A stretch of 64,000 nt of DNA from Polyangium mundeleinium. Lineage in GTDB: Bacteria > Myxococcota_A > Polyangia > Polyangiales > Polyangiaceae. The stretch is taken from the NCBI RefSeq assembly GCF_028369105.1, contig NZ_JAQNDO010000001.1, positions 4,060,501 through 4,124,500 of the forward strand, given 5' to 3'. The notes beneath the pieces are model-generated. The model did not search any database. It was not told the DNA's origin and saw only the letters and a program-made list of their open reading frames with translations. Shown here piece by piece: positions 24,655 to 45,927 of this stretch. How positions within the stretch are numbered: position 1 is the first letter of the stretch; each line of letters opens with the position of its first letter. The position numbers and the translations under genes are program-made.

Positions 24655-26649
24655 TCACATCCGGACGAGGTCCGATGTCTTCCGATTCGATAGATGCGTG
24701 GCCCGAGCACGCGTGTGCAACGCCAGGCTCAGGTAGCGCTCGTCTTCGGTGTACATCAACCGAGCATCGCAGAGTCTATCCAGCAGCGCTTGGATCTCCG
24801 AGACCGATGCCCTCTCTCGCGTGGCCCGCAAGATCGAAGACAGCTTTGGCCCGGCATCGCAGAGCTCGTAGACCTCGCCTTCGAGCCCCTCGAGCAGCGT
24901 CACCCGCGGCCTTTCCCGGGGGGAGCGGCGGTCCTCGATCTCCACAAAGCCTGCTCCGACCTTGCAGGTCAATCGAGCGCCAGCGCGGTGGGCCTCTCGC
25001 CACTTCTTGCTCTCCCGCACCAGGGCCTCCGTGTACTGCAGATCTTGATCGACCACGTCGTGCATGAACCGATAAGACATGTCCATCAGGTCCGCTTCGC
25101 TGGCCTCGTATAGCTCCGTCATGAAGGGCATGGGCCTGACGTTCTGGATGGCCGGGAATCTCTCGATGTTCCGGTGGTACACGCTGAAGCGATCGAGCAA
25201 GAATGGCGTCAGCCCGGAGGGGGGCGGCAGGTGCCACAACGAAGGGAGCACACGGATCATGTCATCGTACCAGGCCGGATCCTCGCCGGGAAACCGATAC
25301 AAGATGTTCCACCCCACCTCGATCCCGAACTCGGTGACCCATTTCAAGAAGCGAATATTATGCAACCCCGTCGTACCCTTTTGCATGAGCTTCAACAGGC
25401 TGGTGCTCAGTGACTCGATCCCGGGCTGCAGGCTCGTCACGCCCGCGTCCGCGAGGCGCTTGATCTCGGCGCTGTTCGTGAGGACCTTTATCTCCCAGAA
25501 TAGCTGCAGGTCGTATCCGAGCTGCTGGAACTCAGGCAGGACCGTCGAGAGGTACCGATGATCGATGATCCAGTCGGTGAACTGGAACCGCCTGGCCTTG
25601 TAGCGTTCGCTCAGCGTCTGGACGTCCTTGACGACCCGCTCCGATGAGCGGCTGGAGTACGTTGCGTCGCCGATGCCGCAGAACGTGCATTGGTTCTTCG
25701 CTCCCCACCAGCACCCACGCGCTGAGCGCAGAGGGAGCTCCGGCTGCATCGCGGAGATCTGCTCGGAGATCCACGACGGCAGCGTCGCCGCGAGGGAGCT
25801 GCGCAGCGCGAAGTACTCGTCGTAGTTCGGGAGCGGGAGCTCGTCGATCGGCAGCAGCGAGGAGGCGCCTTCGGGCTCGCTCTGCACGACACCCTCGTGC
25901 CGGTAGCAGAGGCCGGGGCTTCTCCGGAGCGCTGCTTCCCCCGCGGCGACCCGCGCGAGGTCGGCGATGACATGCTCCCCCTCACCCCGGACCACGAAAT
26001 CGATCCACGGGTAGGCGCGCATCATCGCCACGCCCATGTCCCCCTCGCAGCTGCTGCCACCGAAGACGATCTTGATGTCGGGGGCGCGGGCCTTCAGCAT
26101 CTTCGACAGCGTCGCCGAGGCGATCGTTTGGCTGAACGTGTTCGTGAAGCCGACCAGGTGCGGGTCGGCCTGGAGGATGTCGTTCACGGCCACCTCGAGG
26201 AACTCGCCGGCTCGGACCTTGATCCAGGCGAGCTTTTGCCGGATCTCCTCGTGCGGTTCATGCTCGAAATAGCCGATGAAGCTCATGTTCGGCGAGTTGC
26301 CCTTCGCGCGCTCCACGCGCAGGCTCTCGATGAGCTGGTCCTGGAAACCCAGATCGCCACGGCCCGCGGAGCTGAACGGCGGATGGGCGAAGACCCAATC
26401 ACCTACGCCGGTCTCGTAGGAGCGGCCCAGCACGAGAAGATAGTCGCGCAGCCGGCTCTGCAGCTCGACGGGCGTGGTGATCTGGCGCAGGCAGTGGCCC
26501 AGGAAGCCCAGGTGGTACGACCGCGTCGTCGCTTGGATTTCTTGCTTCAGCAACGCTGCTTGTAAAGATCCAATCTGAATCGATGGGGAGAAAGGAAAGG
26601 TCCAAGGCATGGAGACGAGCACAACCCGGGGTGTTATCGACATGGTCAT
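24655..26649 (-). CDS. B12-binding radical SAM enzyme, RiPP C-methyltransferase-like (rSAM_ocin_1 type)
   Basis: The 664-residue protein starts with a cobalamin-binding-like domain (about residues 5-235, with PHLVGFTNTFSQT, VFGGSSCEG and FVVRGEGE). The radical SAM domain has the Cys motif C-WWGAKNQ-C-TF-C (Cys 313, 321, 324). This C-x7-C-x2-C form with CWWGAK is characteristic of the RiPP-maturation radical SAM family that occurs with nitrile-hydratase-leader or bacteriocin-type precursors, where known members methylate unactivated carbons. The start at 26649 gives an ATGA overlap with the aldolase gene. No NHLP-type precursor is seen nearby, so the substrate is open. Confidence 0.88.
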   Translation of the reverse strand: MTMSITPRVVLVSMPWTFPFSPSIQIGSLQAALLKQEIQATTRSYHLGFLGHCLRQITTPVELQSRLRDYLLVLGRSYETGVGDWVFAHPPFSSAGRGDLGFQDQLIESLRVERAKGNSPNMSFIGYFEHEPHEEIRQKLAWIKVRAGEFLEVAVNDILQADPHLVGFTNTFSQTIASATLSKMLKARAPDIKIVFGGSSCEGDMGVAMMRAYPWIDFVVRGEGEHVIADLARVAAGEAALRRSPGLCYRHEGVVQSEPEGASSLLPIDELPLPNYDEYFALRSSLAATLPSWISEQISAMQPELPLRSARGCWWGAKNQCTFCGIGDATYSSRSSERVVKDVQTLSERYKARRFQFTDWIIDHRYLSTVLPEFQQLGYDLQLFWEIKVLTNSAEIKRLADAGVTSLQPGIESLSTSLLKLMQKGTTGLHNIRFLKWVTEFGIEVGWNILYRFPGEDPAWYDDMIRVLPSLWHLPPPSGLTPFLLDRFSVYHRNIERFPAIQNVRPMPFMTELYEASEADLMDMSYRFMHDVVDQDLQYTEALVRESKKWREAHRAGARLTCKVGAGFVEIEDRRSPRERPRVTLLEGLEGEVYELCDAGPKLSSILRATRERASVSEIQALLDRLCDARLMYTEDERYLSLALHTRARATHLSNRKTSDLVRM

Positions 26650-27614
26650 AAAATCTTCCGGGTGTCGGGTACACGATCGACCCTGGCAGCTGGCGCTGCC
26701 TTGGAGGAGGCTTGTTCCTCGTAGACGTCGATGAATCGGAGGTATCTCCGGGCGATCTGCGCGACCGCGGCGTCTCGTGTCATGGAGCCGTCGAGCTTGC
26801 CCTTCACCGCGTCCCACCAGATGGAGCGTCCGATGGCGAAGCCAACATAACCCGGCACGCCGGCGCCCGCCCGGAGCCAGCGGTCGACCGCGGCGTCGTC
26901 TGCGCCGCGTCCGAGCACGACGCAGACGACGTCATCACGCCCACCCGCGCGAGTCTGCTCCGCGATGCAGGCGCACTCCTCGCGCGAATTTACGCCCTCG
27001 ATCTTCCAGATGTCCGGCTCGACGCCGGCTGCCTGGATCTCGGCGATGGCCTGGACCATGAGCGCCGGCCGCAGATCGGTGTCATAGCGGTCGCCCGAGC
27101 CACCAAGCTCCTCGAGCTGCGCGCGCTCGGCCGGGACCAGCAGCTCGAACAGGAACTTGCGGTCGCGCCGATGGATCCATTCTGATAGCCGGGCGAGGCG
27201 CTCGCCTTGTCGTGCGTTCATGACTCTGTCACCTCCGGGGTTCCATCGCACGAGGACCTTGGCGAACGAGGGGTCGAATTCCTCGATGTGGGCCCCGAAA
27301 TCGTTGCCGTACTCGAAATCGAACTCGTCCTGCCCGTTCTTCTCCACGAGCATGGCGAACAGGTGCCCGGCAAGCTTGACCTCGTGCGCGATAGCCGCGC
27401 CGAACTGCTCGTCCACGAGGATGCCGGCGGCGTCCCGGGGGGCGCCGTCGGCGATGGCCTGCTGGAATCCCTCGACGATAAGGTGCTTCGCGTCGGCGAT
27501 GCGCCTCGTCTCCTCGGCGTTCGGCGTGTCCGAGATCCCGAATAGCTTCTTCTGGAATGAGCCGCGATGGTCGAACGCCAGGATGTAAAGGCGGCCGTGG
27601 TAACCTAGCGCCAT
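26646..27614 (-). CDS. DUF2090-type aldolase (IolC C-terminal-like)
   Basis: The 322-residue protein has the signature YILAFDHRGSFQKKLFG of the DUF2090 domain, which in some IolC fusions is the 2-deoxy-5-keto-gluconate-6-phosphate aldolase. PDIWKIEGVN holds a candidate Schiff-base Lys, and IGRSIWWDAV lies near the C-terminus. It stands alone here, not fused to a kinase. Neighbouring sugar-phosphate and aminotransferase genes suggest a role in making or breaking a C6/C7 polyol unit. It is 36 bp downstream of the peptidase gene and overlaps the radical SAM gene. Confidence 0.8.
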   Translation of the reverse strand: MALGYHGRLYILAFDHRGSFQKKLFGISDTPNAEETRRIADAKHLIVEGFQQAIADGAPRDAAGILVDEQFGAAIAHEVKLAGHLFAMLVEKNGQDEFDFEYGNDFGAHIEEFDPSFAKVLVRWNPGGDRVMNARQGERLARLSEWIHRRDRKFLFELLVPAERAQLEELGGSGDRYDTDLRPALMVQAIAEIQAAGVEPDIWKIEGVNSREECACIAEQTRAGGRDDVVCVVLGRGADDAAVDRWLRAGAGVPGYVGFAIGRSIWWDAVKGKLDGSMTRDAAVAQIARRYLRFIDVYEEQASSKAAPAARVDRVPDTRKIL

Positions 27615-27650
27615 CAGTGTCGTCTCCTCGTCGTGAACCGGATCAGAAGC

Positions 27651-29510
27651 CTACCCCAGCGCGTGGAGCGCGGGGGCGCGCACGAGTGGCTTGACGGCAG
27701 AGACCACCTCGATCCCGAGCCGCCGGGAGATCGCCTCGGCTTCATCGAGCCAGGCGTCGATGCTGCTGGTGATGCCGTCACGCCAGAAGCTCGGGGCGCG
27801 GGGGTCCAGCCCGAAGGGCCGCATCAGCGACACCGCGTCCCTGGTCCCGCCGGAACGCAGGAGCTCGAGGTACATGTCCTCGAAATCATCGCCCAGGCGA
27901 TCCCGCGCGGCGTAGAGCGCCTGCGAGAAGAGCTGGCCGAAGGCGTAAGAATACACGTAGAACGGGCGCAGGAAATGGGTGATGTACGACCACAGATTAT
28001 CCACGTTCGCGTACGTGAATACGTCGCCATCCTCTCCGTAGAAGGCCCGGATGCTGTGCATCCACGATTCGTTGATCTCATCGACGGTAAGCTTCCCTCG
28101 CTGGCGGAGCTGGTGGATTTTCCGCTCGAAGCTCGAGAGGCAGATCTGGCGAACCACGGTGTTGACGAAAGCGTTGCTTTGGCGCATCAGGAGCGCAAGG
28201 CGCTGCGCGTCCGTGTCCGCTCGGTCGAGCAGGTGCTGGAAGGTCGCCATCTCACCGAAGATCGACGCCGTCTCGGCGTAGATCGTCGGCGCCCGGAACA
28301 TGCGCGCGCCCTGGGCCCTGGCCGCAAGGATCCCGTGCACGCCGTGCCCGAGCTCGTGGGCCACGGTCATGACGTCGTCCATCGAGCCGAGGTAATTCAA
28401 GAGGCTATAGCTCCCGGCGTCTCCGTCCGGCAGGGGAATCGTGCAGTTGAACGCGCCCCCGATCTTGCCCGGAGCCGGAGGCACGTCGACCCAGCGACGC
28501 TTGAGCATGGTGTCCACCAGATCCGCGAGCGTGGGGCTCAGCGAACCGTAGGCCAGCCGCACGGTCTCCAGGCACTCGATCCAAGGGACTTGTCGGGGTT
28601 CGGTGATCGGCGACGCGGCGTTACGATCTGACCAGCGCAGCGGGCTCGCGCCGAGGTGGGCGGCGAGCAGCCGGTAGTAGCGGCGGCACGCCGGGATCCC
28701 GAGCGCGGCGACCGCATCGTGCAAGGCCTCGACGGTGGCGTCATCGACGCGGTTGTCGATGTTGCGGGCCGACATCGGCGACGCGTAACCCCGCTCGGAG
28801 TCCTCCACGATCTTGGCGCCGATGACGACGTTGAGCCCGCGCGCCATCAGCCGGTCGAAGCCCTGCGCGGTGAGCCCCTCGCTGAACAGCGCCAGCGCAC
28901 GCGCCCGGGTGTCGCCGTCGATGTAATGCGTGAGCACATGCAAGATCCCCGGAAGAGCGAGGGACTCGCCGTCGAGCGTGAACCGCAGCGTGGTCTCGAC
29001 TTCCTCGATGTGGTCCGACCACTCGCCGGGTCCGAACGGCTGGCGCAACGCCAAGGCCCGTTCGACGGGCTCGGCGAGCAGGTGCGCGCGGTTTCCCCGC
29101 GCGTGATCGAGCAGCGGGCGGTGCCTCCTCACCACCTCGTCACGGTCGATGAGATCGGCGTAGGTCTGCTCGTCGATCGCTACGAGCTCGTGCTCGAAGA
29201 AGCCGAGGTGCTGGGCGCTGGCCCGGCTCCACGCCTCCTCGATCTGCGCGATTCGTTGCTGTATCTTGAGATCCGCAGCGTCGGTGGCGCGACGAAGGAA
29301 CAGGTAGCCCGTCAGCTTTTCGACGAGGCAGGACATCGCTTCTTGCGCTTGCAGGGCGGCCCCGAGGGTCGTCGCCAGCGTGCCCCGGTGGCGGCGGGCA
29401 AACGCCTCTGCCAGGTGGATCAGCGCGCGCAGATCCTCATCGATCTGCACGTCGTCGAGCCCTCGGTATAGGGCGCTCAGATCCCAGCGAAGGTCGTCAT
29501 CGGTCGTCAT
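27651..29510 (-). CDS. M3-family oligoendopeptidase F-like metallopeptidase
   Basis: The 619-residue protein has the zinc motif HELGH (385-389) with the third ligand Glu in YAETASIFGE (about 413), and C-terminal YVYSYAFGQL typical of M3B peptidases. The start at ATG 29510 fits the family N-terminus (DLRWDLSALY). It is the first gene of the three-gene minus-strand operon with the aldolase and the RiPP-type radical SAM enzyme. It is cytosolic, with no signal peptide. It could remove leader peptides or recycle products; in the wider family the usual role is general oligopeptide turnover. Confidence 0.9.
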   Translation of the reverse strand: MTTDDDLRWDLSALYRGLDDVQIDEDLRALIHLAEAFARRHRGTLATTLGAALQAQEAMSCLVEKLTGYLFLRRATDAADLKIQQRIAQIEEAWSRASAQHLGFFEHELVAIDEQTYADLIDRDEVVRRHRPLLDHARGNRAHLLAEPVERALALRQPFGPGEWSDHIEEVETTLRFTLDGESLALPGILHVLTHYIDGDTRARALALFSEGLTAQGFDRLMARGLNVVIGAKIVEDSERGYASPMSARNIDNRVDDATVEALHDAVAALGIPACRRYYRLLAAHLGASPLRWSDRNAASPITEPRQVPWIECLETVRLAYGSLSPTLADLVDTMLKRRWVDVPPAPGKIGGAFNCTIPLPDGDAGSYSLLNYLGSMDDVMTVAHELGHGVHGILAARAQGARMFRAPTIYAETASIFGEMATFQHLLDRADTDAQRLALLMRQSNAFVNTVVRQICLSSFERKIHQLRQRGKLTVDEINESWMHSIRAFYGEDGDVFTYANVDNLWSYITHFLRPFYVYSYAFGQLFSQALYAARDRLGDDFEDMYLELLRSGGTRDAVSLMRPFGLDPRAPSFWRDGITSSIDAWLDEAEAISRRLGIEVVSAVKPLVRAPALHALG

Positions 29511-29860: not shown

Positions 29861-31348
29861 GTGACGGCGAGAAACGTACAGGTCTTCTCGGGACGGGACC
29901 GCGAGGGGGAGACGGGGCCTGCGCGAGGTATGATGCAGGTCAGTGAATCGATGACGCCGCGAGATGGCACGACCCGAGAAGGCTTGCCCGCGCCTGGCCG
30001 CGAGCTGGTCGAGCGTGTCGCGGCAGAGCTCCAGCGGAATCCCTTCCTCGGCTCGGAGCGGCTGTGTGGCTTGACCGGGTGCTCGCGAGCCGAGCTTTGC
30101 TCAGCGTACGAGGTTATCCGATCGGATCGCGAGATCCAGCGGTCGTGGCACGGCTCGATTCTCCGGGACTTCTTCGTCGTCGCGGCGCAGCTCATGGCGC
30201 GGGCGTCGCATCTGGAGCGGATCATCCAGGGCGAGCTCGTCTTCCCGCTGTTCATCGAGTTTCACGCCGGCGGGGCGTGCCCGATTCACTGTAGCTTCTG
30301 CTACAACGAGGGGACCGACTACTACAAGGCGCAGAGCTGGCGCGCCCAGATGATCGACGAGGCCATGCTGCTCGAGATCATCGATGAGGCCGCCGACAAC
30401 GGCACGGTGCTCTTCTACGTAGCAGGCGGGGGCGAGCCCACCACCGACCGGCGGATCTGGAGGCCGCTCGCCCGCGCCAAGCAGCGTGGCATGATCACCA
30501 TGCTCAACACGATGGGCGTTCACCTGGACCGGCCGCAGGTTCGTGCCGATATCCTCGCGAGCGTCGACCAGATCCGGGTGAGCCTCAATGCCGCCACCCA
30601 GCGCTCGTATCGGCTCATCGCTCAGCTGCCGACGTCGACCATGTTCGGAACGGTCTGTGATGGCCTCCGCGCGCTCGCGGAGGAGCGCGATCGAGAAGGT
30701 GCTCGGCTCCGGATCACCTGCTCCTTCGTGCTCGTGCGTGACAACTGGGACGAGATCGAGCGGATGGCCGAGCTCGGTCACAGCTTGGGGGTCGACGACG
30801 TCTACGTGCGACCGGCCTGGGAGGGCGCCAACGGGCCGTCCCCGCGGGATGATGCGGCGATCGCCGAAGGCGTTGAGCGGCTCAAGAGGCGCATCGAGAG
30901 GGGCGAGTTTGGAAGGACCACCATCAACGTCGGGACGTCCGTCGAGACCGAATCGACCACGGACAGCGCCTTCCGCGCTGCGCTCCAGGACGCGGAGTGC
31001 ATCGTGCACCGATTCAAGATCGGGATCGACGCCTGGGGGAACGTCCATCGCTGCTCGCTCGTCGCCCAGCCCGGCGTCGGTAGGTTCGAGCATGTCCTCG
31101 GCAGCCGCCGCGCAAGCTCCTCACTGCGCGAGATCGTCGACGCGGTCGCTGCGCGCAACGAGTGGCGCGTCGAGGATTGCGTGAAGAAGAACGTGCTCTG
31201 CTCGACCTTCGAGGGGTACTTCAACGCGTTCGTGACGAAGCTGAAGCGAGACGCGCTGTTCGGCGTCTCCATCGCGGAGCAGCCGTTCTTGTCAATGCAC
31301 GAGCAGCACCGATGGTTCGCCGATCGTCTGGACGGACCGTCGAGATAG
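29861..31348 (+). CDS. Radical SAM protein with SPASM-like C-terminus
   Basis: The product is 495 residues from GTG 29861, chosen because AGAGGAGG precedes it by 4-5 nt. Unusually, about 130 residues precede the Cys motif CPIHCSFC (Cys 140, 144, 147); they read like a helical, possibly winged-helix-like domain (LVERVAAELQRNPFLGSERL). After the SAM barrel (AGGGEPTTD) a C-terminal segment with Cys (DAECIVHRFKIGIDAWGNVH, then RCS and DCVKKNVLC) resembles an auxiliary-cluster SPASM region. SPASM enzymes usually modify peptides. It is separated from the other radical SAM genes and has its own promoter region. Confidence 0.85.
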   Translation: MTARNVQVFSGRDREGETGPARGMMQVSESMTPRDGTTREGLPAPGRELVERVAAELQRNPFLGSERLCGLTGCSRAELCSAYEVIRSDREIQRSWHGSILRDFFVVAAQLMARASHLERIIQGELVFPLFIEFHAGGACPIHCSFCYNEGTDYYKAQSWRAQMIDEAMLLEIIDEAADNGTVLFYVAGGGEPTTDRRIWRPLARAKQRGMITMLNTMGVHLDRPQVRADILASVDQIRVSLNAATQRSYRLIAQLPTSTMFGTVCDGLRALAEERDREGARLRITCSFVLVRDNWDEIERMAELGHSLGVDDVYVRPAWEGANGPSPRDDAAIAEGVERLKRRIERGEFGRTTINVGTSVETESTTDSAFRAALQDAECIVHRFKIGIDAWGNVHRCSLVAQPGVGRFEHVLGSRRASSSLREIVDAVAARNEWRVEDCVKKNVLCSTFEGYFNAFVTKLKRDALFGVSIAEQPFLSMHEQHRWFADRLDGPSR

Positions 31349-31356
31349 ATCGAGCG

Positions 31357-32142
31357 TCACTCGTCGACCACGCCGCCCGCGCGCAGCCAGTCATCAATCG
31401 ACACGAGCAGCGGGCGAGCGGACGAGCGCCCCGTGGCCAGGTCCACCAGCATAGCCGCTGCGGCGGTTGGGCTCGGCACCGGCGCGGCCTTCTCCCTCTG
31501 GACGGCCTCTTCCGGTGACTCCCCGCGAATCACTGCGCGGTCGGCCGCGATGGACAGTCGCATGGGCGTCGCCATGACTCCCGGCAATACCACGTGGATC
31601 CTGATGTTCCACGGCGCGACCTGCGGCGCGACCGCCATGGCGAGGCCGTGAACGCCGCCCTTGCTCGCCGCGTAGGCCACCGATGAGCCAGGACCGCGAA
31701 CACCTGCGTCCGAGGCCAGGCACAGGATGACACCGCCCCCGCTTCGCTGCATGAGGGGGGCAGCGTGCTTGATGCACAGGAATGTGCCCGTCAAGTTCAC
31801 GGAGAGCACCCGCTCCCAGAGCGAGATCGTGAAACGCTCGACAGGCAGCGATGGGCCCAAGAGGACGGCGGCGGCGGTCACCAGCGTATCGAGGCGGCCG
31901 TAGTGTCGGGTCGCCGCGGCCATCATGGCGGCGACATCGGCCTCGGACGATACGTCGGTGCGCACGAAGATGGCTTGTCCCCCGGCGTCGGTGACGAGCT
32001 GTACCGCCTCCTCCGCGGCGGTCTCATCGATGTCACCGATCACTACCTGCGCGCCGGCACGTGCGAACCGCACGGCGGCGTGCTTCCCGAGCCCCTGGAC
32101 GCCGGTGATCGCGGCGACCTTGCCCATGAGCGAAGCGCTCAT
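31357..32142 (-). CDS. Short-chain dehydrogenase/reductase
   Basis: The protein is about 261 residues from ATG 32142 (a GTG at 32160 is possible). It is a classical SDR: nucleotide loop AAITGVQGLGKHAA, DID after beta-2, VNLTGTF, catalytic Ser in the CLASDAG strand, and YAASK with Tyr and Lys. The loop is one residue shorter than the usual TGxxxGxG form. The substrate is unknown. It is convergent with the radical SAM gene at 31348 and may act on a sugar or polyol intermediate of this cluster. Confidence 0.88.
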   Translation of the reverse strand: MSASLMGKVAAITGVQGLGKHAAVRFARAGAQVVIGDIDETAAEEAVQLVTDAGGQAIFVRTDVSSEADVAAMMAAATRHYGRLDTLVTAAAVLLGPSLPVERFTISLWERVLSVNLTGTFLCIKHAAPLMQRSGGGVILCLASDAGVRGPGSSVAYAASKGGVHGLAMAVAPQVAPWNIRIHVVLPGVMATPMRLSIAADRAVIRGESPEEAVQREKAAPVPSPTAAAAMLVDLATGRSSARPLLVSIDDWLRAGGVVDE

Positions 32143-32265
32143 ATTGCTGGAGTCTCCCACTCGGTGTGGCTGGAACTCGGCCGCTGACGCCCCAGCGCAC
32201 GGCGGGTCTCGTCAAGCGTCGATCGGAGGATGTACGATTATGCGAAAGGGGCTGGAAGGACGCGT

Positions 32266-32520
32266 CTACCAGTACATGAGCCTGAGGTCCACGAGCTGGT
32301 CCAGCTTCTTGAAGACCTGGTTGCCCGACCTCTGAATCGTGACCCTGGCGCTCGGCGAGCCGATCGCCTCCGCGCCGCGCATCCACGTGCCCGCATCATT
32401 GAGCTTGGCATCGAGGTCGCGAATTTCGAGAGTGATTTCACAGTTCTCCGGCAGGTCCGCTCCAATGAGCTTCTGCAGGGCCATGATCTCGTCTTCAGGC
32501 GACAGGGGGCGCTTCACCAT
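32266..32520 (-). CDS. Small protein of 84 aa, function unknown
   Basis: The start at ATG 32520 is chosen for a CAGGAGAG site 6-8 nt upstream; an upstream frame extension is unlikely. The 84-residue protein has a charged N-terminal half (PEDEIMALQKLIGADLP), an alternating beta-like segment (CEITLEIRDLD) and a C-terminus ending DLRLMYW. It carries no known domain that I recognise. Its size, its place among radical SAM genes and its aromatic C-terminus make it a possible second precursor or a leader-binding partner, but there is no direct support. Confidence 0.7.
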   Translation of the reverse strand: MVKRPLSPEDEIMALQKLIGADLPENCEITLEIRDLDAKLNDAGTWMRGAEAIGSPSARVTIQRSGNQVFKKLDQLVDLRLMYW

Positions 32521-36910: not shown

Positions 36911-36947
36911 CACCCCTTCCACGAGATTCACACGCTCCAAGCTCACC

Positions 36948-38621: not shown

Positions 38622-40864
38622 GGATCCCTGCGGACGATGTTGATCCGGCGCAGCGCGGAGCACAGGGCGCCGTTGCTGAGCATCACGCCATGCACGTTGA
38701 TCGCGTTCGAGCGAACACCGGGGCCGGGGCGCGCGATGAACGCGACGTCAAGCTCCTTGCCCGGCGCAAGGATGACGTGGCGAGGCGGCGGCTCGACCGT
38801 GAACCGGTCCAGGTCGCTGCCCTTGCGGTCCAGCGCGACGCCGCAGTGGATCAGCGCGGTCACCGGCAGATCGTTGCGAGCGCGCAGGCGCAGGTGGATC
38901 AGCTCGCCGCCGGTGACCGTCTCCGCGCAGTCGATCGTCAGCAACGACCGCTCCTCCGGGAGATCGGCGATCACGAGGCAGCGCTCGCACTCCACCGTCT
39001 CGCGCCGCTCCGACGGCCACAGACCGGCGCGGTAGCGCCTCGCGACCAGGCGGCTGCCGCAGTACGGACAGGGCGTTGACAGCCAGCGGACGCCCGACCG
39101 CCGCATACCGCGCGCGGCCCGGTAGTGGTTCTCGAGCCACTGGACGTGCTCCTCGGCCCGGCGCACCACGATCTCGATCATCGACGCCTGCGCCGCGGCG
39201 CAAGCGCCGATGAGGATCTGCTGCGCCTCCTCCACCGCGGCGTGGAGCGAGGCAGAGGTGAAGTCAGCGTCGTGCGCCATCACGAGCTTCGGTCCGACCT
39301 CGGCCAGCAAGCGATCGAGCGCGTCGAGCGAGCGGTCCTCGAATCCACCGTCGAAGCACGCCCTCGCCTCTCGCAGCGCGCGGCCGGTCTGATCGATGAT
39401 CTCCACGAGATCGGGGCGCAGCGGATCGCGTGAGGTCAGCGTCACGTCGACCTCGGCGGCGGACACGCCGCGGTCACAGGCGATGACGAGGTCGACCTCC
39501 GACGGTCTGTCCTCGTGTCGGATCACCTCGATTGCCAGCCTGTCGATGAGTGCGTCGTCGACGAGGCCGTGCAGGCGCTCCGCGGCCGTCAGGCCGTCGA
39601 TCGCAACCCGATGGCGACAGATTCGTCCCGGCGTTATTGCCAGCCTCACGTGGCCCCCGAGGGCACCCGTGTGCCGCGGCACCTCGGCGACGCTCTCGGG
39701 AGCGCAGATTCGCAGGTCGGGATCACCGAGCAGGATGTACGGGCTCGGCATCCCAGTCTTCTGTTCGGCGAGCCGTCCGAGCGCGTGGCACAGCTCGCCC
39801 ATGGTCGCTCCCCGCAGGCAGTGCTCCCAGCTCAAGTACGACGCGAATGCGGTCGGGTGGTGGATACGATACGGAGAGATGACGGCCGAGGCGGCGCCGT
39901 TCAGGAGCTGGAGCGCCAGGTTGGCCCCGCCGGCGGGCTGCGGGTAATTGAGCCGAAAGGCCGCGGTGGCGCACTGCTCGAGGACGAGCACATCGCCCCG
40001 CAGCGCCCCCGCCGGGACGCGCGGCTCGTTCGGGAACATGCAGTCGAACCCCGCGAAGCAGGCGCGATCGCCGGCTGCCGCTGCGTCGAGCCGGGAGCAC
40101 AGGTTCCCATCCATCGCGCAGTACGATCGGCCGTGGCCCGAGAAGATCACGAAGGGTTCGCCGCCGAGGATCCTCGTCAATCGATCGGGGGCCGGGTGAT
40201 TCGGGAGCACGGTCTCGTCGAGATCGTCGAGCTTGATCGGCGCCTCGCGCCCGAGCTGATACACGAGGCCTCGCGGGAGCTGCGGCGGTCGCCGGGCGTG
40301 GCTGCGCGCCACGAGCCTCGACGCCCCCGCGACGTCCGTGCCCGTCAAGATCCCCCAGCGCGTCCTCGTCGCGCGCATCGCGTGCGCGAGCCGATCGCAG
40401 CTTATCCGCTCGAGGGCCGCCGGAGACATGGTGAGCACGACAGAAGTCCGGGCACCCAGGAGATCGCCGAGGTGCTCGAGGTCATCGTCCGCCTCGGCGA
40501 TGATCAGGGACTTGTCCTCGACGATCGCGTGCACGATCCCGGCGGTGCACAGCGCATCGTGGGCCCAGACGACGCAGGCCGAGCCCCCGGCGCGGCGCCG
40601 CTCCTCGTGTATCTCGCGCAGCCGCGCCGCGAGCCAGCCCGGTGAAGCCAGCAGGTCGAGCGAGCTTGACCCTTCGTAGCGCACGCCCGCGCCGGGGGAC
40701 AGCGTGGCGCGGTCGGCGGCGAGCTGGCCCTCGCTCCCCGCCACGGGGATCAGCGCGTGACCGCAAGCGGCCTCGAGCGCCTCGAGATCGAGGGCAGCGG
40801 CGAGGTATTCTCGAGGATCGCGGCAGAGGAGCGGCGTCCGAGGCGCTCGCGTCGTCGGGGACAT
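38612..40864 (-). CDS. Caspase-fold (CHAT/gingipain-like) protein with zinc ribbon
   Basis: The product is 750 residues from ATG 40864, preceded by AGGAG. The first ~390 residues match a caspase-like hydrolase: His 244 in FSGHGRSY and Cys 298 in VLVLEQCATAAF form the expected dyad, and YILLGDPDLRI closes the domain as in C25 and CHAT proteins. The C-terminal part has a four-Cys zinc ribbon (CPYC at 599-602, CERC at 626-629) and a final beta-rich domain. There is no signal peptide, so it is cytosolic. It is the last gene of the operon with the precursor-like peptide and the cyclophane maturase, so a role in leader cleavage or product-triggered proteolysis is possible but unproven. Confidence 0.75.
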   Translation of the reverse strand: MSPTTRAPRTPLLCRDPREYLAAALDLEALEAACGHALIPVAGSEGQLAADRATLSPGAGVRYEGSSSLDLLASPGWLAARLREIHEERRRAGGSACVVWAHDALCTAGIVHAIVEDKSLIIAEADDDLEHLGDLLGARTSVVLTMSPAALERISCDRLAHAMRATRTRWGILTGTDVAGASRLVARSHARRPPQLPRGLVYQLGREAPIKLDDLDETVLPNHPAPDRLTRILGGEPFVIFSGHGRSYCAMDGNLCSRLDAAAAGDRACFAGFDCMFPNEPRVPAGALRGDVLVLEQCATAAFRLNYPQPAGGANLALQLLNGAASAVISPYRIHHPTAFASYLSWEHCLRGATMGELCHALGRLAEQKTGMPSPYILLGDPDLRICAPESVAEVPRHTGALGGHVRLAITPGRICRHRVAIDGLTAAERLHGLVDDALIDRLAIEVIRHEDRPSEVDLVIACDRGVSAAEVDVTLTSRDPLRPDLVEIIDQTGRALREARACFDGGFEDRSLDALDRLLAEVGPKLVMAHDADFTSASLHAAVEEAQQILIGACAAAQASMIEIVVRRAEEHVQWLENHYRAARGMRRSGVRWLSTPCPYCGSRLVARRYRAGLWPSERRETVECERCLVIADLPEERSLLTIDCAETVTGGELIHLRLRARNDLPVTALIHCGVALDRKGSDLDRFTVEPPPRHVILAPGKELDVAFIARPGPGVRSNAINVHGVMLSNGALCSALRRINIVRRDPQP

Positions 40865-40875
40865 CGTCAATGCTC

Positions 40876-41664
40876 CTATAACTGCTCGAACCACAGGCGC
40901 AGCGGATCAGGCCAGGCCGCTCCGGCGTCCGGAGGCTCGAGGACGAAGCCATGTCCGCCGCGAGGGAAGACGTGCGCCGAGACGTCCACGTTATTCTCGC
41001 GGTAGGCTCGCGCGAGCGTGAGCGAACTCGTGAGGGGGACGGTAAGATCGTCCGCCGCGTGGGCGATCAGGACCGGTGGGGCGTCTCGATCGACCAGGCG
41101 CTCCAGGCTGAATCGGGCGCGGAGATCCGCGTCGGGGGAGTCGACGCCGCAGAACCGTGCGACGGATCCCTCGTGGGTCGGCGGCAGGAAGGATCCGACC
41201 GGATACACCAGCGCGAGGCGCTGCGGTCTCGGGCTGATTGTCGCCGCGAGATCATCGTCGGGGTCGGCCATCAGGTGAGGAGCGAAGGAGACGAGACCCG
41301 CGAGGTGCCCGCCGGCGCTGAAGCCCACCATACCGATCCTCTCGGGATCGATCCCGAGCTCCGCCGCGTGGTGACGCGTGAGCCGGACGGCGCGCATCGC
41401 GTCCGCCACCGCTGCGGGGTATGCACACGGCGCGACCCGGTAGAACGCCAGGACCGCGTGAAACCCCGCGTCGCAGAGCCACCGCACGACCGGGAGGCTC
41501 TCGCTCGGGGCGTTCACCTGATAACCACCCCCCGGAAAGATCACGACCGCGGGGCCCGGGGTCGCGCGCGGCCGGTCGGCGCGATGGACCTCCATCGTGG
41601 GTCCCCACGTGGGCAAACCCGATTTGCGACCGCGCCACAGCGGGATGACCTTGCAGTCACCCAC
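40876..41664 (-). CDS. Alpha/beta hydrolase (esterase/peptidase-like)
   Basis: The product is 262 residues from GTG 41664, overlapping the maturase stop and preceded by TGAGGA. It has the oxyanion segment FPGGGYQ, nucleophile Ser 116 in GFSAGG, acid Asp about 205-206 (HAADDLTVP) and His 238 (GGHGF). The closest families are acetyl-esterase and BD-FAE-like hydrolases. It lies between the maturase and the caspase-like gene, with an 11-bp gap to the latter. It may deacylate or cleave a modified product. Confidence 0.88.
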   Translation of the reverse strand: MGDCKVIPLWRGRKSGLPTWGPTMEVHRADRPRATPGPAVVIFPGGGYQVNAPSESLPVVRWLCDAGFHAVLAFYRVAPCAYPAAVADAMRAVRLTRHHAAELGIDPERIGMVGFSAGGHLAGLVSFAPHLMADPDDDLAATISPRPQRLALVYPVGSFLPPTHEGSVARFCGVDSPDADLRARFSLERLVDRDAPPVLIAHAADDLTVPLTSSLTLARAYRENNVDVSAHVFPRGGHGFVLEPPDAGAAWPDPLRLWFEQL

Positions 41665-42799
41665 CGGGAGCGTCCTCAGGGGGAGCCGCGCGCTTGATGC
41701 CGCGCAGCTCCGCCACCAGCCGCGCGTGGACGTGGCGGATGAAGACCTGGAGGTCAGGGCAGTAGACGCTCGGATTGTCGAATCCGCGCGAGGAGGAGTA
41801 GCGGTGGGAGACGTGCCCGCCCCGGCAAGCGCTGTAATAGCCGCACCCGAGGCACGTCGCGGAGGGGCGCGTGGCGACGCGCAGGGCGTGCAGCGCGGGC
41901 GCGCGCTCGAGCTCGACGAGCGAGTGCGCGAACACGTTGTGTCCGAGGTGAGCCGCGCCGTGGTACGCCGTCTTGAGCGTGTCATCCGCCTCCATCTCGC
42001 CGTTGGACTCGATGACGATGGAGTCGAAGTGGTCGAGCGCGTCGCCGGCCTCGGGGCGCAGGAGCCACGTCATCCACCGCTCGAAGCTACGGATCCGGAC
42101 GCGTGAGCCCTTGCCGAGCCAGTGATCAAAGCACTCAATGAGCCAGGCCGCGTACGGATCCGGACGTCCGTCGTCCTCGACGCGGCTGTCGTGGTTGCGC
42201 AGCGGCAAGAGGAAATCGATGGCCGGCGGGGAGAAGCTCGCGAGGTAGTCGAACACCTCCCTCGCGGACGACCGCGGGTCGACGACCGCCAAGAACCCCT
42301 GGAAGATCGGGCGAAGCTCGGGTGAGGTGATGAGCGCGAGTTTGTCCTCGACGTCGGCGGAGGTCGGGCGCATGCGATGATCGACGCGGCGCAGATCGTT
42401 GATCCGCGGAGGCCCGTCAAGGCTGATGTAGAGGCCGACGTCCGCGCGGAGCAGGAGCTCGCCGAGCTCGCGCGTGAACGGGATACCGTTGGATTGCAGC
42501 GAGGAGTTCACGCGGACCCCCGACCCGTCGAAGGTCTCTCGCAGGGCCCGGAGGATGCCCTCGAGGCGCTCGCGCCCGCAGAGCAGGGGCTCTCCCCCGT
42601 GAAAATTGATGTTGATCCTGGTGAGCTGATGGTGCTCGCAGTATTCGCGGATCCGCCGCGCCGCCGCACGCGCGACGTCCTCTCCCATGTATGGGGGCTG
42701 GCGACGCCAGCTCGAGTCGCCGGCATGATAGACGTAGCAATAGGTGCAGTCGAGGTTGCACCGGCTGGCGATCTTCCATACAAAATTGGTGAAAGGCAT
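41657..42799 (-). CDS. Radical SAM/SPASM peptide maturase, FxsB type (cyclophane-forming)
   Basis: The 380-residue protein begins with the SAM cluster CNLDCTYC (Cys 14, 18, 21) in the context ASRCNLDCTYCYVYHAGDSS, followed by NFHGGEPLL. The SPASM domain has CLGCGYYSACRGGH (Cys 316, 319, 325) and FDNPSVYC (Cys 347). These are the hallmarks of the FxsB/XyeB/GrrM group, whose known members join an aromatic ring to the beta-carbon of a residue two positions on, making a three-residue cyclophane. A precursor-like peptide gene lies 176 bp upstream on the same strand, which supports this assignment. Confidence 0.9.
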   Translation of the reverse strand: MPFTNFVWKIASRCNLDCTYCYVYHAGDSSWRRQPPYMGEDVARAAARRIREYCEHHQLTRININFHGGEPLLCGRERLEGILRALRETFDGSGVRVNSSLQSNGIPFTRELGELLLRADVGLYISLDGPPRINDLRRVDHRMRPTSADVEDKLALITSPELRPIFQGFLAVVDPRSSAREVFDYLASFSPPAIDFLLPLRNHDSRVEDDGRPDPYAAWLIECFDHWLGKGSRVRIRSFERWMTWLLRPEAGDALDHFDSIVIESNGEMEADDTLKTAYHGAAHLGHNVFAHSLVELERAPALHALRVATRPSATCLGCGYYSACRGGHVSHRYSSSRGFDNPSVYCPDLQVFIRHVHARLVAELRGIKRAAPPEDAPGG

Positions 42800-42975
42800 C
42801 GCTGGAAAGGCCTTTGCGGCGCAATGCAGAGGACGTCTTTGGGGCCTGTCCGCTCGGCTGCCGAGATACGTACGAGCTGCGCGGCGCTGGCCACGCGCTG
42901 GAGCCGGCGGGGTCTCGGAGCGCTCGTCGCCTTTGCCCGACGACGAGCGTCACGCGGCCCCGCCGGACCGGGGGC

Positions 42976-43230
42976 TCAGCCCGCGGACTGCTGCTTGTTG
43001 AGCTCCGCGATCGACATCTTGGGCGCGGAGGTGTACGTCCCGCCCAGATGCTGGGCCAGGCGATTGCGGATGGCGTCGTTGAGCACGTCCTTCAGCACGT
43101 TGTTGTTCAGCGTGCTGATGTCCGCGATGCTCATCGACTCGATCTCGGCAACGGACAGCTGCTGCACGCCCTCAACAAGGCGCTCCCTGGGGATGTCGGC
43201 ATCGAGCTGGATAACTTTCTCGGGGACCAT
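42976..43230 (-). CDS. Candidate RiPP precursor peptide, 84 aa
   Basis: A near-perfect ribosome site (AAAGGAGG, 5 nt spacing) precedes ATG 43230. The first ~60 residues are helical and charged, as expected of a leader. A Gly-Gly at 63-64 (AQHLGGTYTSAPKMS) precedes a 20-residue tail. The peptide has no Phe or Trp; Tyr 66 and His 61 are the only aromatic or imidazole residues. If the FxsB-type enzyme makes a cyclophane, Y66-T-S68 is the obvious target. The motif MSIA-(D/E)-(I/L) occurs twice (33-38 and 72-77), once on each side of the Gly-Gly. No known precursor family is recognised. Confidence 0.75.
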   Translation of the reverse strand: MVPEKVIQLDADIPRERLVEGVQQLSVAEIESMSIADISTLNNNVLKDVLNDAIRNRLAQHLGGTYTSAPKMSIAELNKQQSAG

Positions 43231-43487: not shown

Positions 43488-44279
43488 ATGAGAGAGCCTG
43501 CCCATCGCATCTATGACGAACTGGCGTGGCTGTGGCCGCTATGGGGGAGCCCGGCGGACTACCGCGTGGAGAGCGAGCTCGTGGCCCGGCTGATCCGGGA
43601 GCACGCCCCCTCCGCGCCGAGGACGCTGCTGGAGATCGGGTGCGGCGGCGGCAACAACGCTTTCACGTTGAAGGGCTACTTCGAGCTGTCGGGGATCGAC
43701 ATCAGCGAGCCGATGCTCGAGCACGCACGGAGGCTCAACCCGGAGTGTGCATTCACCCTGGGAGACATGCGTAGCTTCACCTTGCCGCGCCGGTTCGACG
43801 CGGTGTTCCTGGGGCAGTCCGTGGTCTACATGAACACCCGCGAGGACCTGCGGCGCGCCATGGAGCGAGCCTTTGCCCACGTCGAGGCCGGCGGCGTGTT
43901 CGTCTGCTTCACGGAGGTGTACGAGGAGAACTTCATTCAAAACGACACGGGGATATCGATCTCCAGCAGGGCGGGCTCCAGCACGCCGGAGGGGGCGGAC
44001 CCGCGCCTGGATGTCGTGTTCATCCAGAACAAGTTCGACCCGGATCCCGAAGACGAGCAGTTCTCGATGGCGCTGGTGATGCTCATCCGCAGAGACGGCG
44101 CGTTGACCATCGAGCACGACGTCCACACGCTGGGCGTCTTTCCGCTCGATTACTGGAGGGTCTGCATGCGGGAGGCGGGGTTTGTCTTGGCGGCCGAGGT
44201 GCCGCTCAAGGGCAAGCGGGGCGCCCTCCTGTTCGTGTGCACCAAGCCGGCCGAGGGGTCGGGAGAGAGGGGTCGCTGA
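43488..44279 (+). CDS. Class I SAM-dependent methyltransferase
   Basis: The 263-residue protein has motif I LLEIGCGGGNN (47-57), the acidic GIDISEPML strand, GDMRSF and FDAVFLGQS, matching Methyltransf_25-type enzymes. The N-terminal IYDELAWLW resembles small-molecule or peptide methyltransferases. It is followed after one base by the radical SAM-CDGSH gene, so the two form an operon divergent from the precursor/maturase operon. Confidence 0.9.
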   Translation: MREPAHRIYDELAWLWPLWGSPADYRVESELVARLIREHAPSAPRTLLEIGCGGGNNAFTLKGYFELSGIDISEPMLEHARRLNPECAFTLGDMRSFTLPRRFDAVFLGQSVVYMNTREDLRRAMERAFAHVEAGGVFVCFTEVYEENFIQNDTGISISSRAGSSTPEGADPRLDVVFIQNKFDPDPEDEQFSMALVMLIRRDGALTIEHDVHTLGVFPLDYWRVCMREAGFVLAAEVPLKGKRGALLFVCTKPAEGSGERGR

Positions 44280-44280
44280 C

Positions 44281-45201
44281 ATGCTGCGAGAGCGGGTCAA
44301 ATCGATCGAGCTGGAGCTCCACTCCTACTGCCCCAAGCAGTGCGACTTCTGTCCCAACAGCCTCCTCGAGCGGAACGAGAAGGTCGTCTACACGGAAGAG
44401 CGGGTGATCGACGAGATCATCCGCGCGGTGCCCATGCTGCCAAACCTCCGGCGGATGGCGTTCCATCGCTACAACGAGCCCTTCATTCACCGCGGTCAGA
44501 CCGCCAAGATCAACGCGATCATCGCGAAGATCAAGGAGGTGCACCGGGGGGTCGAGTTCTGGGCCGCCTCGAACCTCAGCTTCCTGTCGGAGGGCAACAA
44601 CTTCCTGCGGGACAGCCAGCTGCACTTCATGATGGTCAGGCGCTACGAGGAGAAGGATCCGAGCTTCGAGGCGATGGTGCAGTTCGTCGACGTCCACAGC
44701 GTGTACACGGTGAGCCCCGGCAATCACATCCTGTTCCTCCACGACGGGAAGATTGTCTATTATCACGACGTCACCGTCGCGCCGTTCACCGAGCTGTACG
44801 ACCGGGGGGGCAGCCTGGTCCACCTGTCGACGAGGCGGCGGACGCAGCCCTGCAATCGGATCACGATCAACCTGGGGATCGACTACAACGGCAACGTCAT
44901 GCCGTGCTCCAACATGCAGTCGCAGGTCCCCGCGCACGAGCCCCACATCCTCGGGAACCTGCGCCAGAGCACGCTCCTCGAGATCCTCGGCGGAGAGCCG
45001 GCGGCGAGCTTCTATGAAGCGACGGCCAACGCGGACTTTCCGCCGGCGTGTCGATCGTGCCAGTCCAAGAACGTGATCCGTCGCTTCCCCGGACGCCGCG
45101 GGTGGTGCACTTGCGGTCGCTCGCGGAACCTGCCGTACTGCGACGAAACGCATATCGGCAACGGCGGACCCGGCCCGTGGGAGGAGGACACCGAGCTATG
45201 A
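44281..45201 (+). CDS. Radical SAM/SPASM enzyme with C-terminal CDGSH iron-sulfur motif
   Basis: The product is 306 residues from ATG 44281. It has the SAM cluster CPKQCDFC (Cys 17, 21, 24), a SPASM-like region with Cys (PCNRITINLGIDYNGNVMPC and CRSC), and then WCTCGRSRNLPYCDETH at 275-291. The last motif fits the 2Fe-2S CDGSH pattern C-x-C-x2-S-x3-P-x-C-D-x2-H exactly (Cys 276, 278, 287, His 291), with Glu for the usual Gly. I know of no described radical SAM enzyme carrying this domain. The extra cluster could relay electrons. The substrate is unknown. Confidence 0.85.
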   Translation: MLRERVKSIELELHSYCPKQCDFCPNSLLERNEKVVYTEERVIDEIIRAVPMLPNLRRMAFHRYNEPFIHRGQTAKINAIIAKIKEVHRGVEFWAASNLSFLSEGNNFLRDSQLHFMMVRRYEEKDPSFEAMVQFVDVHSVYTVSPGNHILFLHDGKIVYYHDVTVAPFTELYDRGGSLVHLSTRRRTQPCNRITINLGIDYNGNVMPCSNMQSQVPAHEPHILGNLRQSTLLEILGGEPAASFYEATANADFPPACRSCQSKNVIRRFPGRRGWCTCGRSRNLPYCDETHIGNGGPGPWEEDTEL

Positions 45202-45927
45202 GCGCGGAGGGCGGGGATCGATGCGCGTCTGGGCGCCGCCGCGCTCGTCATGCGAACGCAGCCAGGCCAACAGCCGCGCGACGATCGCATTCGTGAACAT
45301 GTCGCCCACGCAAGCCGCCTCTTCCCAGCGCAGGAAGTGGACGTCCCCGATCTGCTCGGCGACGCGATGCTGGAGCGCCGCCTCCGAGCGGTCGACCCGG
45401 CCTTCGCGGAAGACGTAGCCCTTCTCGTCGCGCTCGAGCTCGTCGCGTGACACCTCCAGGGCGAAGAACGCCATCCCCCGATCCTCGGACCGCGTGTCGA
45501 AGAAGGCGCTGTTCGGGTTGCCACGGGGCCCCGGCAAGCTGACCAGCCCGCGCCCGGAGAACTCGTAGCCCGTCTCCTCCGAGAGCTCGCGGATCGCGCC
45601 GTCCTCCGCGCTCTCGCCACGCTCGAGGAAGCCGCGCGGCGCGTTCCAGACGTCGCCGCCCTGGTTGAACCGATGCTCGCGGACCAGGCCAACAACGAGT
45701 GCGTCGTCGATGAAGCAGAACGGAAGGATCACGACGCCGCCGCAGGCATGGCGGAAGGCCCAGCTATCATAGCCGGCCGGCGTGTCGCCATACGTGAGCG
45801 TCCCGATGTCGCCGTGCTCGAGTATGAGCAACGATACATCCTGCAGGAGCGCGCCGTTGACGCGAACCTGCCAGCCGCGGGCCGGCTGTCGCTCCGCGGT
45901 GATCGGTTTCAATAGGGTCTCGCTCAT
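45196..45927 (-). CDS. Nudix hydrolase
   Basis: The product is about 243 residues from ATG 45927. The Nudix box is complete: G-FLERG-E then RELSEETGYEF. The N-terminal beta region (RGWQVRVNGALLQDVSLLIL) resembles ADP-sugar pyrophosphatases. It could hydrolyse a nucleotide sugar. It overlaps the radical SAM-CDGSH gene by 6 bp at the 3' ends and marks the right end of the biosynthetic cluster. Confidence 0.9.
   Translation of the reverse strand: MSETLLKPITAERQPARGWQVRVNGALLQDVSLLILEHGDIGTLTYGDTPAGYDSWAFRHACGGVVILPFCFIDDALVVGLVREHRFNQGGDVWNAPRGFLERGESAEDGAIRELSEETGYEFSGRGLVSLPGPRGNPNSAFFDTRSEDRGMAFFALEVSRDELERDEKGYVFREGRVDRSEAALQHRVAEQIGDVHFLRWEEAACVGDMFTNAIVARLLAWLRSHDERGGAQTRIDPRPPRS

Follow-up and report, generated by a model that had tools for sequence, protein, structure and literature searches.

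In the FxsA/FxsB system, which belongs to the ribosomally synthesized and posttranslationally modified peptides (RiPPs), the precursor is defined by an FxSxx ending. Triceptide enzymes bond an aromatic ring at position i to the Cbeta of residue i+2, and the cases described include bonds from Tyr C3 to Asp or Arg and from Phe C4 to Ser (PMC11002830). Bacterial UDP-apiose synthases from X. pisi, G. roseus and Entotheonella have been assayed and make UDP-apiose, and a Yangia/Alloyangia protein outside these three groups with them in the published tree (PMC5607165, in the sections drawn on here). MshC, a tRNA-independent paralogue of cysteinyl-tRNA synthetase, is described in parts of two reports as the cysteine ligase of mycothiol (PMC2922099; PMC9736012), and the natural product SB-219383 is listed, in the excerpts used, with tyrosyl-tRNA synthetase (TyrRS) as its target (PMC7916415, PMC9686979). 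Here we describe a locus at positions 24655-45927 of the window, the whole 64,000-nucleotide stretch of Polyangium mundeleinium DNA that was analysed, taken from a 13.25-Mb genome. In its core, at about 32985-43230, genes for a precursor-like peptide and an FxsB-type maturase stand beside genes of apiose and aminosugar type, and the combination recurs, in whole or in part, in four other bacteria spanning Pseudomonadota, Actinomycetota and Bacteroidota. We give an even chance to the reading that the core encodes a natural-product pathway joining a ribosomal peptide to an apiose-type aminosugar, with a tyrosine-like product related to TyrRS.

Gene Content of the Core

Codon-based gene calling placed 17 genes in the locus, and the proteins of the window were scanned for families with Pfam, NCBIfam (TIGR), PADLOC, PHROGs and PDB. 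The core consists of two convergent operons, the first on the + strand (gaps of -4, 0 and 37 nt) and the second on the - strand (gaps of 176, 61 and 11 nt), listed here in the direction of transcription:

32985..34076, + strand: UDP-apiose/UDP-xylose-synthase-type NAD-dependent enzyme (best PDB match AXS1)
34073..36283, + strand: DegT/ArnB-type sugar aminotransferase fused to a TauD/clavaminate-synthase-like iron/2-oxoglutarate (Fe/2OG) oxygenase (4-nt overlap with the preceding gene)
36284..36910, + strand: HAD-type phosphatase (family scans; 39-42% to the Nocardia and Paraburkholderia proteins below)
36948..38621, + strand: class 1 fructose-bisphosphatase (FBPase)-type phosphatase with a ~220-aa N-terminal extension (family scans; Paracoccaceae homologue)
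42976..43230, - strand: pep84a, an 84-aa precursor-like peptide (leader-like LSVAEIESMSIADISTLNNNVLKDVLNDAI; constant block GGTYTS near the C-terminus)
41657..42799, - strand: FxsB-type radical S-adenosylmethionine (SAM)/SPASM maturase (CNLDCTYC; best family TIGR04269)
40876..41595, - strand: alpha/beta hydrolase of BD-FAE/Abhydrolase_3 type (family scan; homologues in the Paracoccaceae, Flavobacterium and Paraburkholderia loci)
38612..40864, - strand: 750-760-aa protein, putative cysteine peptidase by eye only (31% homologue in the Paracoccaceae locus)

The original prediction had taken the whole locus for one unrecognised multi-radical-SAM system. Its account of a methyltransferase, an oxygenase-aminotransferase fusion, an HAD phosphatase, an FBPase fusion, a short-chain dehydrogenase/reductase (SDR), a Nudix enzyme and an aldolase (DUF2090 aldolase-like in the scans) agrees with the family scans. 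Its unity is supported for the core, where peptide, FxsB and sugar genes co-occur in the window and four relatives within one FxsB clade, and is uncertain for the outer genes.

Recurrence in Other Bacteria

The FxsB-type protein was searched against GTDB genomes and the best 80 of 370 relatives were kept as loci; the 17 proteins were then compared with the loci by tblastn, followed by phmmer on open frames of at least 50 aa in 111 loci. Both comparisons gave identical counts for peptide, apiose-synthase type, DegT, HAD, hydrolase, FBPase fusion, 760-aa protein and M3 peptidase, and phmmer also matched the oxygenase in L012 and L090. The peptide was found in three of the 80 FxsB loci, belonging to a Paracoccaceae metagenome-assembled genome (MAG; L009), Nocardia ignorata (L012) and Flavobacterium daejeonense (L013). 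The DegT aminotransferase was found in the same three and the apiose-synthase type in two of them (L009, L012). Peptide, apiose-synthase type and DegT were all absent at E<=1e-3 from the other 77, three of which gave one weak hit apiece, to HAD, hydrolase or SDR. A peptide profile run on the open frames of the loci brought in just one further locus, L010, with a weak match (E 0.0013). The fourth relative, a Paraburkholderia plasmid record (L090), was reached by plasmid searches with the peptide and with the apiose-synthase-type protein. The co-occurrence of those two is therefore not independent there, while that of FxsB, HAD, hydrolase, oxygenase and an LLM flavoenzyme is.

The Paraburkholderia record, which carries no annotation, encodes the apiose-synthase type (68% identity), DegT (58%), the oxygenase (E 4e-87), HAD (42%), the peptide (51%), FxsB (50%), the hydrolase (45%) and the LLM flavoenzyme. 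In Paracoccaceae, L009 extended by L102 holds the apiose-synthase type (66%), peptide (62%), FxsB (47%), hydrolase (38%), DegT (59%), oxygenase (39%), 760-aa protein (31%) and FBPase fusion (38%, across residues 44-536), the oxygenase and FBPase fusion being gained by the extension. Nocardia has the peptide (55%), apiose-synthase type (62%), DegT (59%), oxygenase (E 1e-69), HAD (39%), M3 peptidase (29%) and FxsB (49%), with DegT, oxygenase, HAD, M3 and FxsB consecutive on one strand. In Flavobacterium there are the peptide, FxsB (37%), hydrolase (28%) and a distant DegT (26%). Over the window and its four relatives, peptide, FxsB and DegT thus occur in 5/5 (counting the distant Flavobacterium DegT), apiose-synthase type, oxygenase, hydrolase and LLM flavoenzyme in 4/5, HAD in 3/5, and FBPase fusion, 760-aa protein and M3 peptidase in 2/5 each. 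Each of the four relatives carries the LLM flavoenzyme, which the other 77 FxsB loci lack.

Two of these clusters extend further. In L102 (3240-13744), the Paracoccaceae cluster also carries genes for a KamA-like aminomutase and a further SPASM radical SAM protein, along with two genes of ATP-grasp-like and two of 2OG-Fe oxygenase-like type; with these extras, which include two other radical SAM genes of its own (KamA-like and SPASM), it would be a still larger pathway. In L105 (3490-11772), a gene for a 2760-aa protein resembling nonribosomal peptide synthetases (NRPS) adjoins the Flavobacterium peptide cluster, which also has an NRPS-like A-domain gene.

The distribution is sporadic. The suggestion of repeated co-linear clusters in other Myxococcota was not borne out: a search for FxsB at E<=1e-30 in 281 other genomes drawn from the phylum gave none, with at most six candidates scored in the genomes listed. 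The peptide profile found nothing in 12 genomes bearing other FxsB loci, and only the known copy in the family of the Nocardia genome (1/251) and in that of the Paracoccaceae MAG (1/295). A comparison of the peptide with viral contigs gave 133 pattern matches and 0 relatives. Such scatter across phyla fits horizontal transfer.

The peptide and sugar operons might instead be two unlinked pathways, an FxsB-type cyclophane RiPP and an adjacent aminosugar operon serving a polysaccharide or other glycan. The operons are convergent and not one transcript, apiose is present in glycans of X. pisi (PMC6193724, as excerpted), and plasmids of Salipiger and Alloyangia carry the apiose-synthase type with no peptide gene. 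The peptide itself was never found apart from sugar genes (DegT in 5/5 loci, apiose-synthase type in 4/5); the sugar gene does stand apart in part, on those three roseobacter plasmids, whose chromosomes lay outside the search. Joint recurrence in the Paracoccaceae, Nocardia and Paraburkholderia loci despite different gene orders, the single-strand series of DegT, oxygenase, HAD, M3 and FxsB in Nocardia, and the lack of recognised glycan assembly genes among them all speak against independence, and we regard it as distinctly unlikely.

The Peptide and its Maturase

pep84a is preceded by a near-perfect Shine-Dalgarno sequence (aaaggaggt) and belongs to no Pfam, NCBIfam (E<=0.01) or PHROGs family. 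Its homologues, at 42-62% identity, lie beside FxsB in four loci, and the alignment consists of a helix-like stretch common to all followed by HxGG[T/S]YT[S/T]. The YTS of pep84a lies 16 residues from the C-terminus, and the peptide lacks the FxSxx ending of FxsA-type precursors. Tyr66-Thr67-Ser68 fits, by analogy, the spacing of an i to i+2 cross-link. The original prediction had named one precursor-like peptide; two 84-aa open reading frames exist in the locus, and only that at 42976-43230 was met elsewhere. The other (32266-32520), tried as a second precursor, was rejected, having no family and no homologue in any locus.

The maturase scored 327.5 bits against TIGR04269 over model positions 1-362 of 363, short of the cut-off of 370, and 316 bits against the YhhB model, whose cut-off is 445. 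It has both CX3CX2C and the SPASM cysteines, of which C316, C319, C325 and C347 are invariant in the five homologues. A tree of 32 rows, built from 29 of those 80 loci together with the window, L090 and a paralogue from the window's genome, united the FxsB proteins of the window and the four related clusters in a single clade with support 100/99, the Flavobacterium protein on a long branch. By these comparisons, maturase and precursor appear as a distinct clade near FxsB/YhhB.

The same genome has a further radical SAM RiPP locus. There (L002:1387-2891; C1 349365-353468 of the window's genome) a second radical SAM/SPASM maturase, 31% identical to the first, adjoins a 50-aa peptide that ends in FSLHVQFKQQQK; an ABC-transporter-like gene was recognised nearby by eye.

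Apiose and Aminosugar Genes

The gene at 32985-34076 had been called a sugar epimerase; the scans correct this to a UDP-apiose/UDP-xylose-synthase-type enzyme, with AXS1 as best PDB match (365 bits, vs. 193 bits for ArnA). The protein shares 66.6% identity with the bUAS of Alloyangia (formerly Yangia) pacifica, which from the species name we take to be YpUAS of PMC5607165, and 62-68% with its homologues in Paracoccaceae, Nocardia and Paraburkholderia. In likeness it is closest to AXS/bUAS rather than to ArnA or UXS. In Paraburkholderia the apiose-synthase type is fused to DegT, while in the window DegT is fused to the oxygenase, which L012, L090 and L102 encode separately; the two fusions link all three enzymes in a single route.

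A UDP-apiose-synthase-type gene also lies near TRAP transporter and mannonate dehydratase genes on plasmids of Salipiger and Alloyangia (L091, L092, L093). The plasmid annotation around it shows no peptide and no radical SAM gene.

The 760-aa Protein and Peptidases

Of the two peptidase-like proteins originally proposed, the M3 oligoendopeptidase is upheld and the 760-aa protein, for which Pfam, NCBIfam and PADLOC gave no family at E<=1e-3, is not. Tried as a peptidase, the latter gave only chance Pfam matches at E<=10 and only chance profile matches in PDB. The label rests on GHGR...C read by eye, and a halophile homologue keeps neither the His nor the Cys of that motif; the AlphaFold model is unusable (pLDDT 40.5), and no homologue was found at E<=1e-3 in 187 other genomes of the phylum. 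On a plasmid of the archaeon Haladaptatus (L005:5214-11260), a distant homologue (22-24%) adjoins SDR, DegT aminotransferase and amidase genes.

Truncated Tyrosyl-tRNA Synthetases

Two of the related clusters are accompanied by a second TyrRS gene of their genome (L012:1936-2901, 321 aa; L013:2372-3328, 318 aa). These proteins match TIGR00234 only to 317 and 309 of its 406 positions and lack the C-terminal, tRNA-binding S4 domain. They end where 319-aa TyrRS crystal chains end, and such chains are among their best PDB matches; the crystal chains are engineered truncations. No S4 remnant was found near either gene by tblastn at E<=10. The Flavobacterium gene overlaps the DegT gene by 1 nt, and the Nocardia gene lies ~1.1 kb from the peptide gene on the opposite strand. 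In a tree of 10 rows only, starred branches place the Nocardia copy among actinobacterial enzymes and the Flavobacterium copy beside the housekeeping enzyme of its own genome. Truncation thus arose at least twice, with the cut at about the same residue.

A truncated TyrRS forms Tyr-AMP and does not charge tRNA, so simple target replacement is unlikely. Three candidate roles remain for the S4-less TyrRS: MshC-like Tyr ligase, decoy, or resistant partner in a hetero-dimer. The TyrRS genes come from the host's own phylum, whereas FxsB and the apiose-synthase type are carried across phyla, which leans slightly to resistance. No TyrRS self-resistance cluster was found in the literature searched. 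The plasmid TyrRS genes nearest the Nocardia copy, on Streptomyces linear plasmids (L109, L110), are full-length tyrS at 66-67% identity, with no sugar or radical SAM gene in the annotation around them.

A more conventional explanation would be an ordinary triceptide-type RiPP, with a Tyr66-Ser68 cross-link and subsequent glycosylation by apiose or an aminopentose, the nearby TyrRS genes being chance. The Y-x-S/T spacing agrees with the i to i+2 rule (PMC11002830, in the passages used), FxsB and YhhB are the best families of the maturase, and neither the window nor the Paraburkholderia locus has a TyrRS. Yet no glycosyltransferase was recognised, this explanation leaves aside the oxygenases and the LLM flavoenzyme of all four relatives, and a second, separately truncated TyrRS lies in or beside the cluster in two phyla. 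We judge it rather unlikely.

A Proposed Pathway

The genes, their families and their joint recurrence are as observed above; the chemistry that we infer from them runs as follows. pep84a would be the precursor, its N-terminal two thirds serving as leader and GGTYTS as core. The FxsB-type enzyme might attack residue 68 (a Ser, replaced by Thr in Flavobacterium) at its beta carbon and bond that carbon to the Tyr66 ring, as in triceptides. Peptidases (an M3 enzyme in the window and Nocardia, an M49 enzyme in Flavobacterium, and perhaps also the hydrolase and the 760-aa protein) would then excise a short Tyr-containing piece. On the sugar side, the UDP-apiose-synthase-type enzyme would convert UDP-glucuronate to a sugar of UDP-apiose type, to be aminated by the DegT aminotransferase and oxidised by the Fe/2OG oxygenase, with the HAD and FBPase-like phosphatases taking part. 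Sugar and peptide piece would be joined by a further step, giving a tyrosine mimic related to TyrRS, and the S4-less TyrRS could act as a Tyr-activating ligase, a decoy, or a resistant subunit pairing with the full-length enzyme.

Several points weigh against this proposal, beginning with the fact that all of its chemistry is read from sequence. The FxsB-type protein is below the FxsB and YhhB cut-offs, so Tyr-Ser cross-linking is suggested only by analogy. No glycosyltransferase or other joining enzyme was recognised among the cluster genes. The apiose-synthase type has STSEVYG vs. STCEVYG in AXS1 (the Alloyangia enzyme also has Ser there), and no such gene was found in the L013, L105 and L106 stretches, where the L013 DegT is distant (26%). 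The LLM flavoenzyme of all four relatives was not found in the window. There is no TyrRS in the window and none within 41 kb in L090, while that of L009 is full-length and the single one found in the MAG, and so may be a chance neighbour or the housekeeping gene. A single TyrRS match, of a divergent type (29%), came from the window's genome; this type was found in 15 of 19 other relatives searched and the common type in four. Finally, the GC content of the core is not distinct from the left flank.

A more specific version makes the cluster a gene family for SB-219383-type TyrRS inhibitors. The ribosomal peptide would give the amino-acid part, the radical SAM enzyme would bond its side-chain carbon to the apiose unit by a C-C bond with no cyclophane, and the S4-less TyrRS would be a Tyr-adding ligase or a new form of resistance (decoy, hetero-dimer partner). 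From PDB ligand names, we take SB-219383 to be Tyr-NH-CH(COOH)-(2,4,5,8-tetrahydroxy-7-oxa-2-azabicyclo[3.2.1]oct-3-yl), in which the five-membered oxygen ring with its branch carbon is an apiofuranose. The producer is a Micromonospora strain. The argument rests on this structure and on the set of functions that the genes suggest, namely an apiose synthase, an aminotransferase, oxygenases of LLM and 2OG type, a Tyr-containing peptide and a TyrRS. Against it, the peptide profile found nothing in 354 genomes of the Micromonospora family (the 15 best candidates scored in most; the producer itself possibly not among them), the window lacks LLM and TyrRS genes, and the Tyr ring of SB-219383 is, as we take it, not cross-linked. 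No biosynthesis cluster for SB-219383 was found in the literature searched, where subscription journals were mostly outside reach. We consider this version quite improbable.

Outer Genes and Mobile Surroundings

Around the core, the locus and its neighbourhood contain the following features:

20573-20647: tRNA-Thr(CGT), with a phage-type integrase gene ~120 nt away
20765-21952: phage-type integrase
22350-23689: transposase genes (family scan)
24655..26553, - strand: rSAM_ocin_1 B12-dependent radical SAM C-methyltransferase (TIGR03975, 513 bits, cut-off 282)
26646..27614, - strand: DUF2090 aldolase-like protein (family scan)
27651..29510, - strand: M3 oligoendopeptidase, possible leader peptidase (family scans; 29% M3 homologue between HAD and FxsB in L012)
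29930..31348, + strand: DesII-like radical SAM enzyme (Pfam Radical_SAM; best PDB match DesII, 8hzv/8hzy)
31357..32142, - strand: SDR oxidoreductase (family scans)
32266..32520, - strand: second 84-aa open reading frame (no family; no homologue in related loci)
43488..44279, + strand: SAM-dependent methyltransferase (family scan; divergent from pep84a across a 257-nt gap)
44281..45201, + strand: radical SAM-like SPASM protein with CDGSH motif (CX3CX2C; best PDB match BtrN)
45196..45927, - strand: Nudix hydrolase (family scan)
46292-47230: IS66 genes (family scans)

Four radical SAM enzymes of four kinds do lie within 21 kb, as first proposed: family scans and Cys triads agree, the triad being CX7CX2C in rSAM_ocin_1 and CX3CX2C in the other three. 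The SPASM-CDGSH protein is above the Pfam cut-off for SPASM and below it for zf-CDGSH, with no Pfam Radical_SAM match at E<=1e-3, and the DesII-like enzyme reaches only 61 bits against its best NCBIfam model, TIGR04426 (cut-off 450). In the four related clusters, however, three of the four radical SAM genes have no counterpart. In the stretches of those clusters that were covered, phmmer (E<=1e-3) found no match to rSAM_ocin_1, DUF2090, DesII-like, 32266-32520 peptide, methyltransferase, SPASM-CDGSH or Nudix proteins, so that 'multi-radical-SAM' is not a common feature beyond FxsB. The SDR gave generic phmmer matches only, well outside the clusters (L090 3.7-4.6 kb; L103 5.2-6.1 kb, the latter with E 8e-13 in a single-subject tblastn). 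Nudix-like genes of the Nocardia and L102 clusters match each other and not the Nudix of the window.

Whether the outer genes (rSAM_ocin_1, DUF2090, DesII-like, SDR, methyltransferase, CDGSH-radical SAM and Nudix) are part of the core's pathway is uncertain. The whole 21 kb could be one pathway in which the DesII-like and BtrN-like enzymes process the aminosugar and rSAM_ocin_1 C-methylates the peptide. DesII and BtrN act on aminosugars or aminocyclitols and are the best PDB matches of two of the radical SAM proteins, a resemblance that would suit an aminosugar route. Moreover, rSAM_ocin_1 is a RiPP C-methyltransferase family, and the Paracoccaceae cluster also has extra radical SAM genes (KamA-like and SPASM). 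Yet none of the outer radical SAM genes has a match in the stretches of the four relatives, the DesII-like match is weak, and insertion sequence (IS) genes on either side leave room for a chance gathering. This wider pathway seems to us somewhat unlikely. A viperin-like defence role was rejected; PADLOC viperin models match parts of two radical SAM proteins (E 1e-11 to 1e-7).

The CDGSH-radical SAM protein was met in none of 143 other genomes of the order at E<=1e-10. Its plasmid homologues, in Edwardsiella and Ciceribacter (the latter record without annotation), stand in other contexts. Two Edwardsiella tarda SC002 plasmids (L006, L007) carry regulator, radical SAM/SPASM, acyltransferase, sialidase-family and patatin-like genes in identical order, with a third, partial radical SAM match on NZ_CP116678.1.

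The mobile DNA expected on the flanks is present as integrase, transposase and IS66 genes: the stretch lies to the right of the tRNA-Thr and integrase, with IS genes on either side. GC content runs at 0.68-0.74 up to 20 kb, falls to 0.64-0.67 between 20 and 34 kb, and stands at 0.695-0.71 in the core (34-42 kb). The core resembles the left flank, and composition therefore gives it no foreign mark. The tRNA-Thr/integrase at 20573-21952, with the GC drop to its right, is likely the insertion point. A search for another copy of the tRNA 3' end gave nothing in the window (at most 3 mismatches) or, with 22 nt, in the genome (at most 2 mismatches), and an island boundary is thus not established. Farther right, 59471-59794 and 61890-62024 hold GCC/CCCGAG-rich repeats.

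Comparison with Known Systems

To our knowledge, no RiPP kind joins peptide chemistry with apiose or aminosugar synthesis, and the literature searched held none among the matches listed; a joined apiose-aminosugar route would, as far as is known, be new for RiPPs. The cluster family gives bacterial UDP-apiose synthase a pathway partner and includes tRNA synthetase genes that were shortened on two occasions, each time at about the same point. If its product is related to TyrRS, it may offer a route to the missing biosynthesis of a class of TyrRS inhibitors.

The locus resembles those of the triceptide/cyclophane radical SAM-SPASM enzymes (FxsB, YhhB, XyeB, MscB, YxdB) in placing a SPASM radical SAM enzyme beside a short leader-bearing peptide, and pep84a shares with triceptides an aromatic residue with Ser/Thr at i+2. 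It differs in a maturase below the NCBIfam cut-offs, a precursor without the FxSxx C-terminus, and apiose/aminosugar genes that are absent from the other 77 FxsB loci. With SB-219383, in the structure assumed above, the presumed product would share Tyr, a branched apiose-like ring and an N-hydroxy amine. MshC, in the parts of the reports used, offers the parallel of a class I aminoacyl-tRNA synthetase catalytic domain joining an amino acid to an aminosugar (PMC2922099; PMC9736012), whereas the S4-less TyrRS genes are separate inventions without a known acceptor. The bacterial UDP-apiose synthases are close in sequence (the Alloyangia protein is 66.6% identical, and the best PDB match is AXS1). 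They differ in context: the relevant sections of PMC5607165 report no conserved operon for them, whereas here the gene is fused to an aminotransferase in Paraburkholderia and tied to a peptide maturase.

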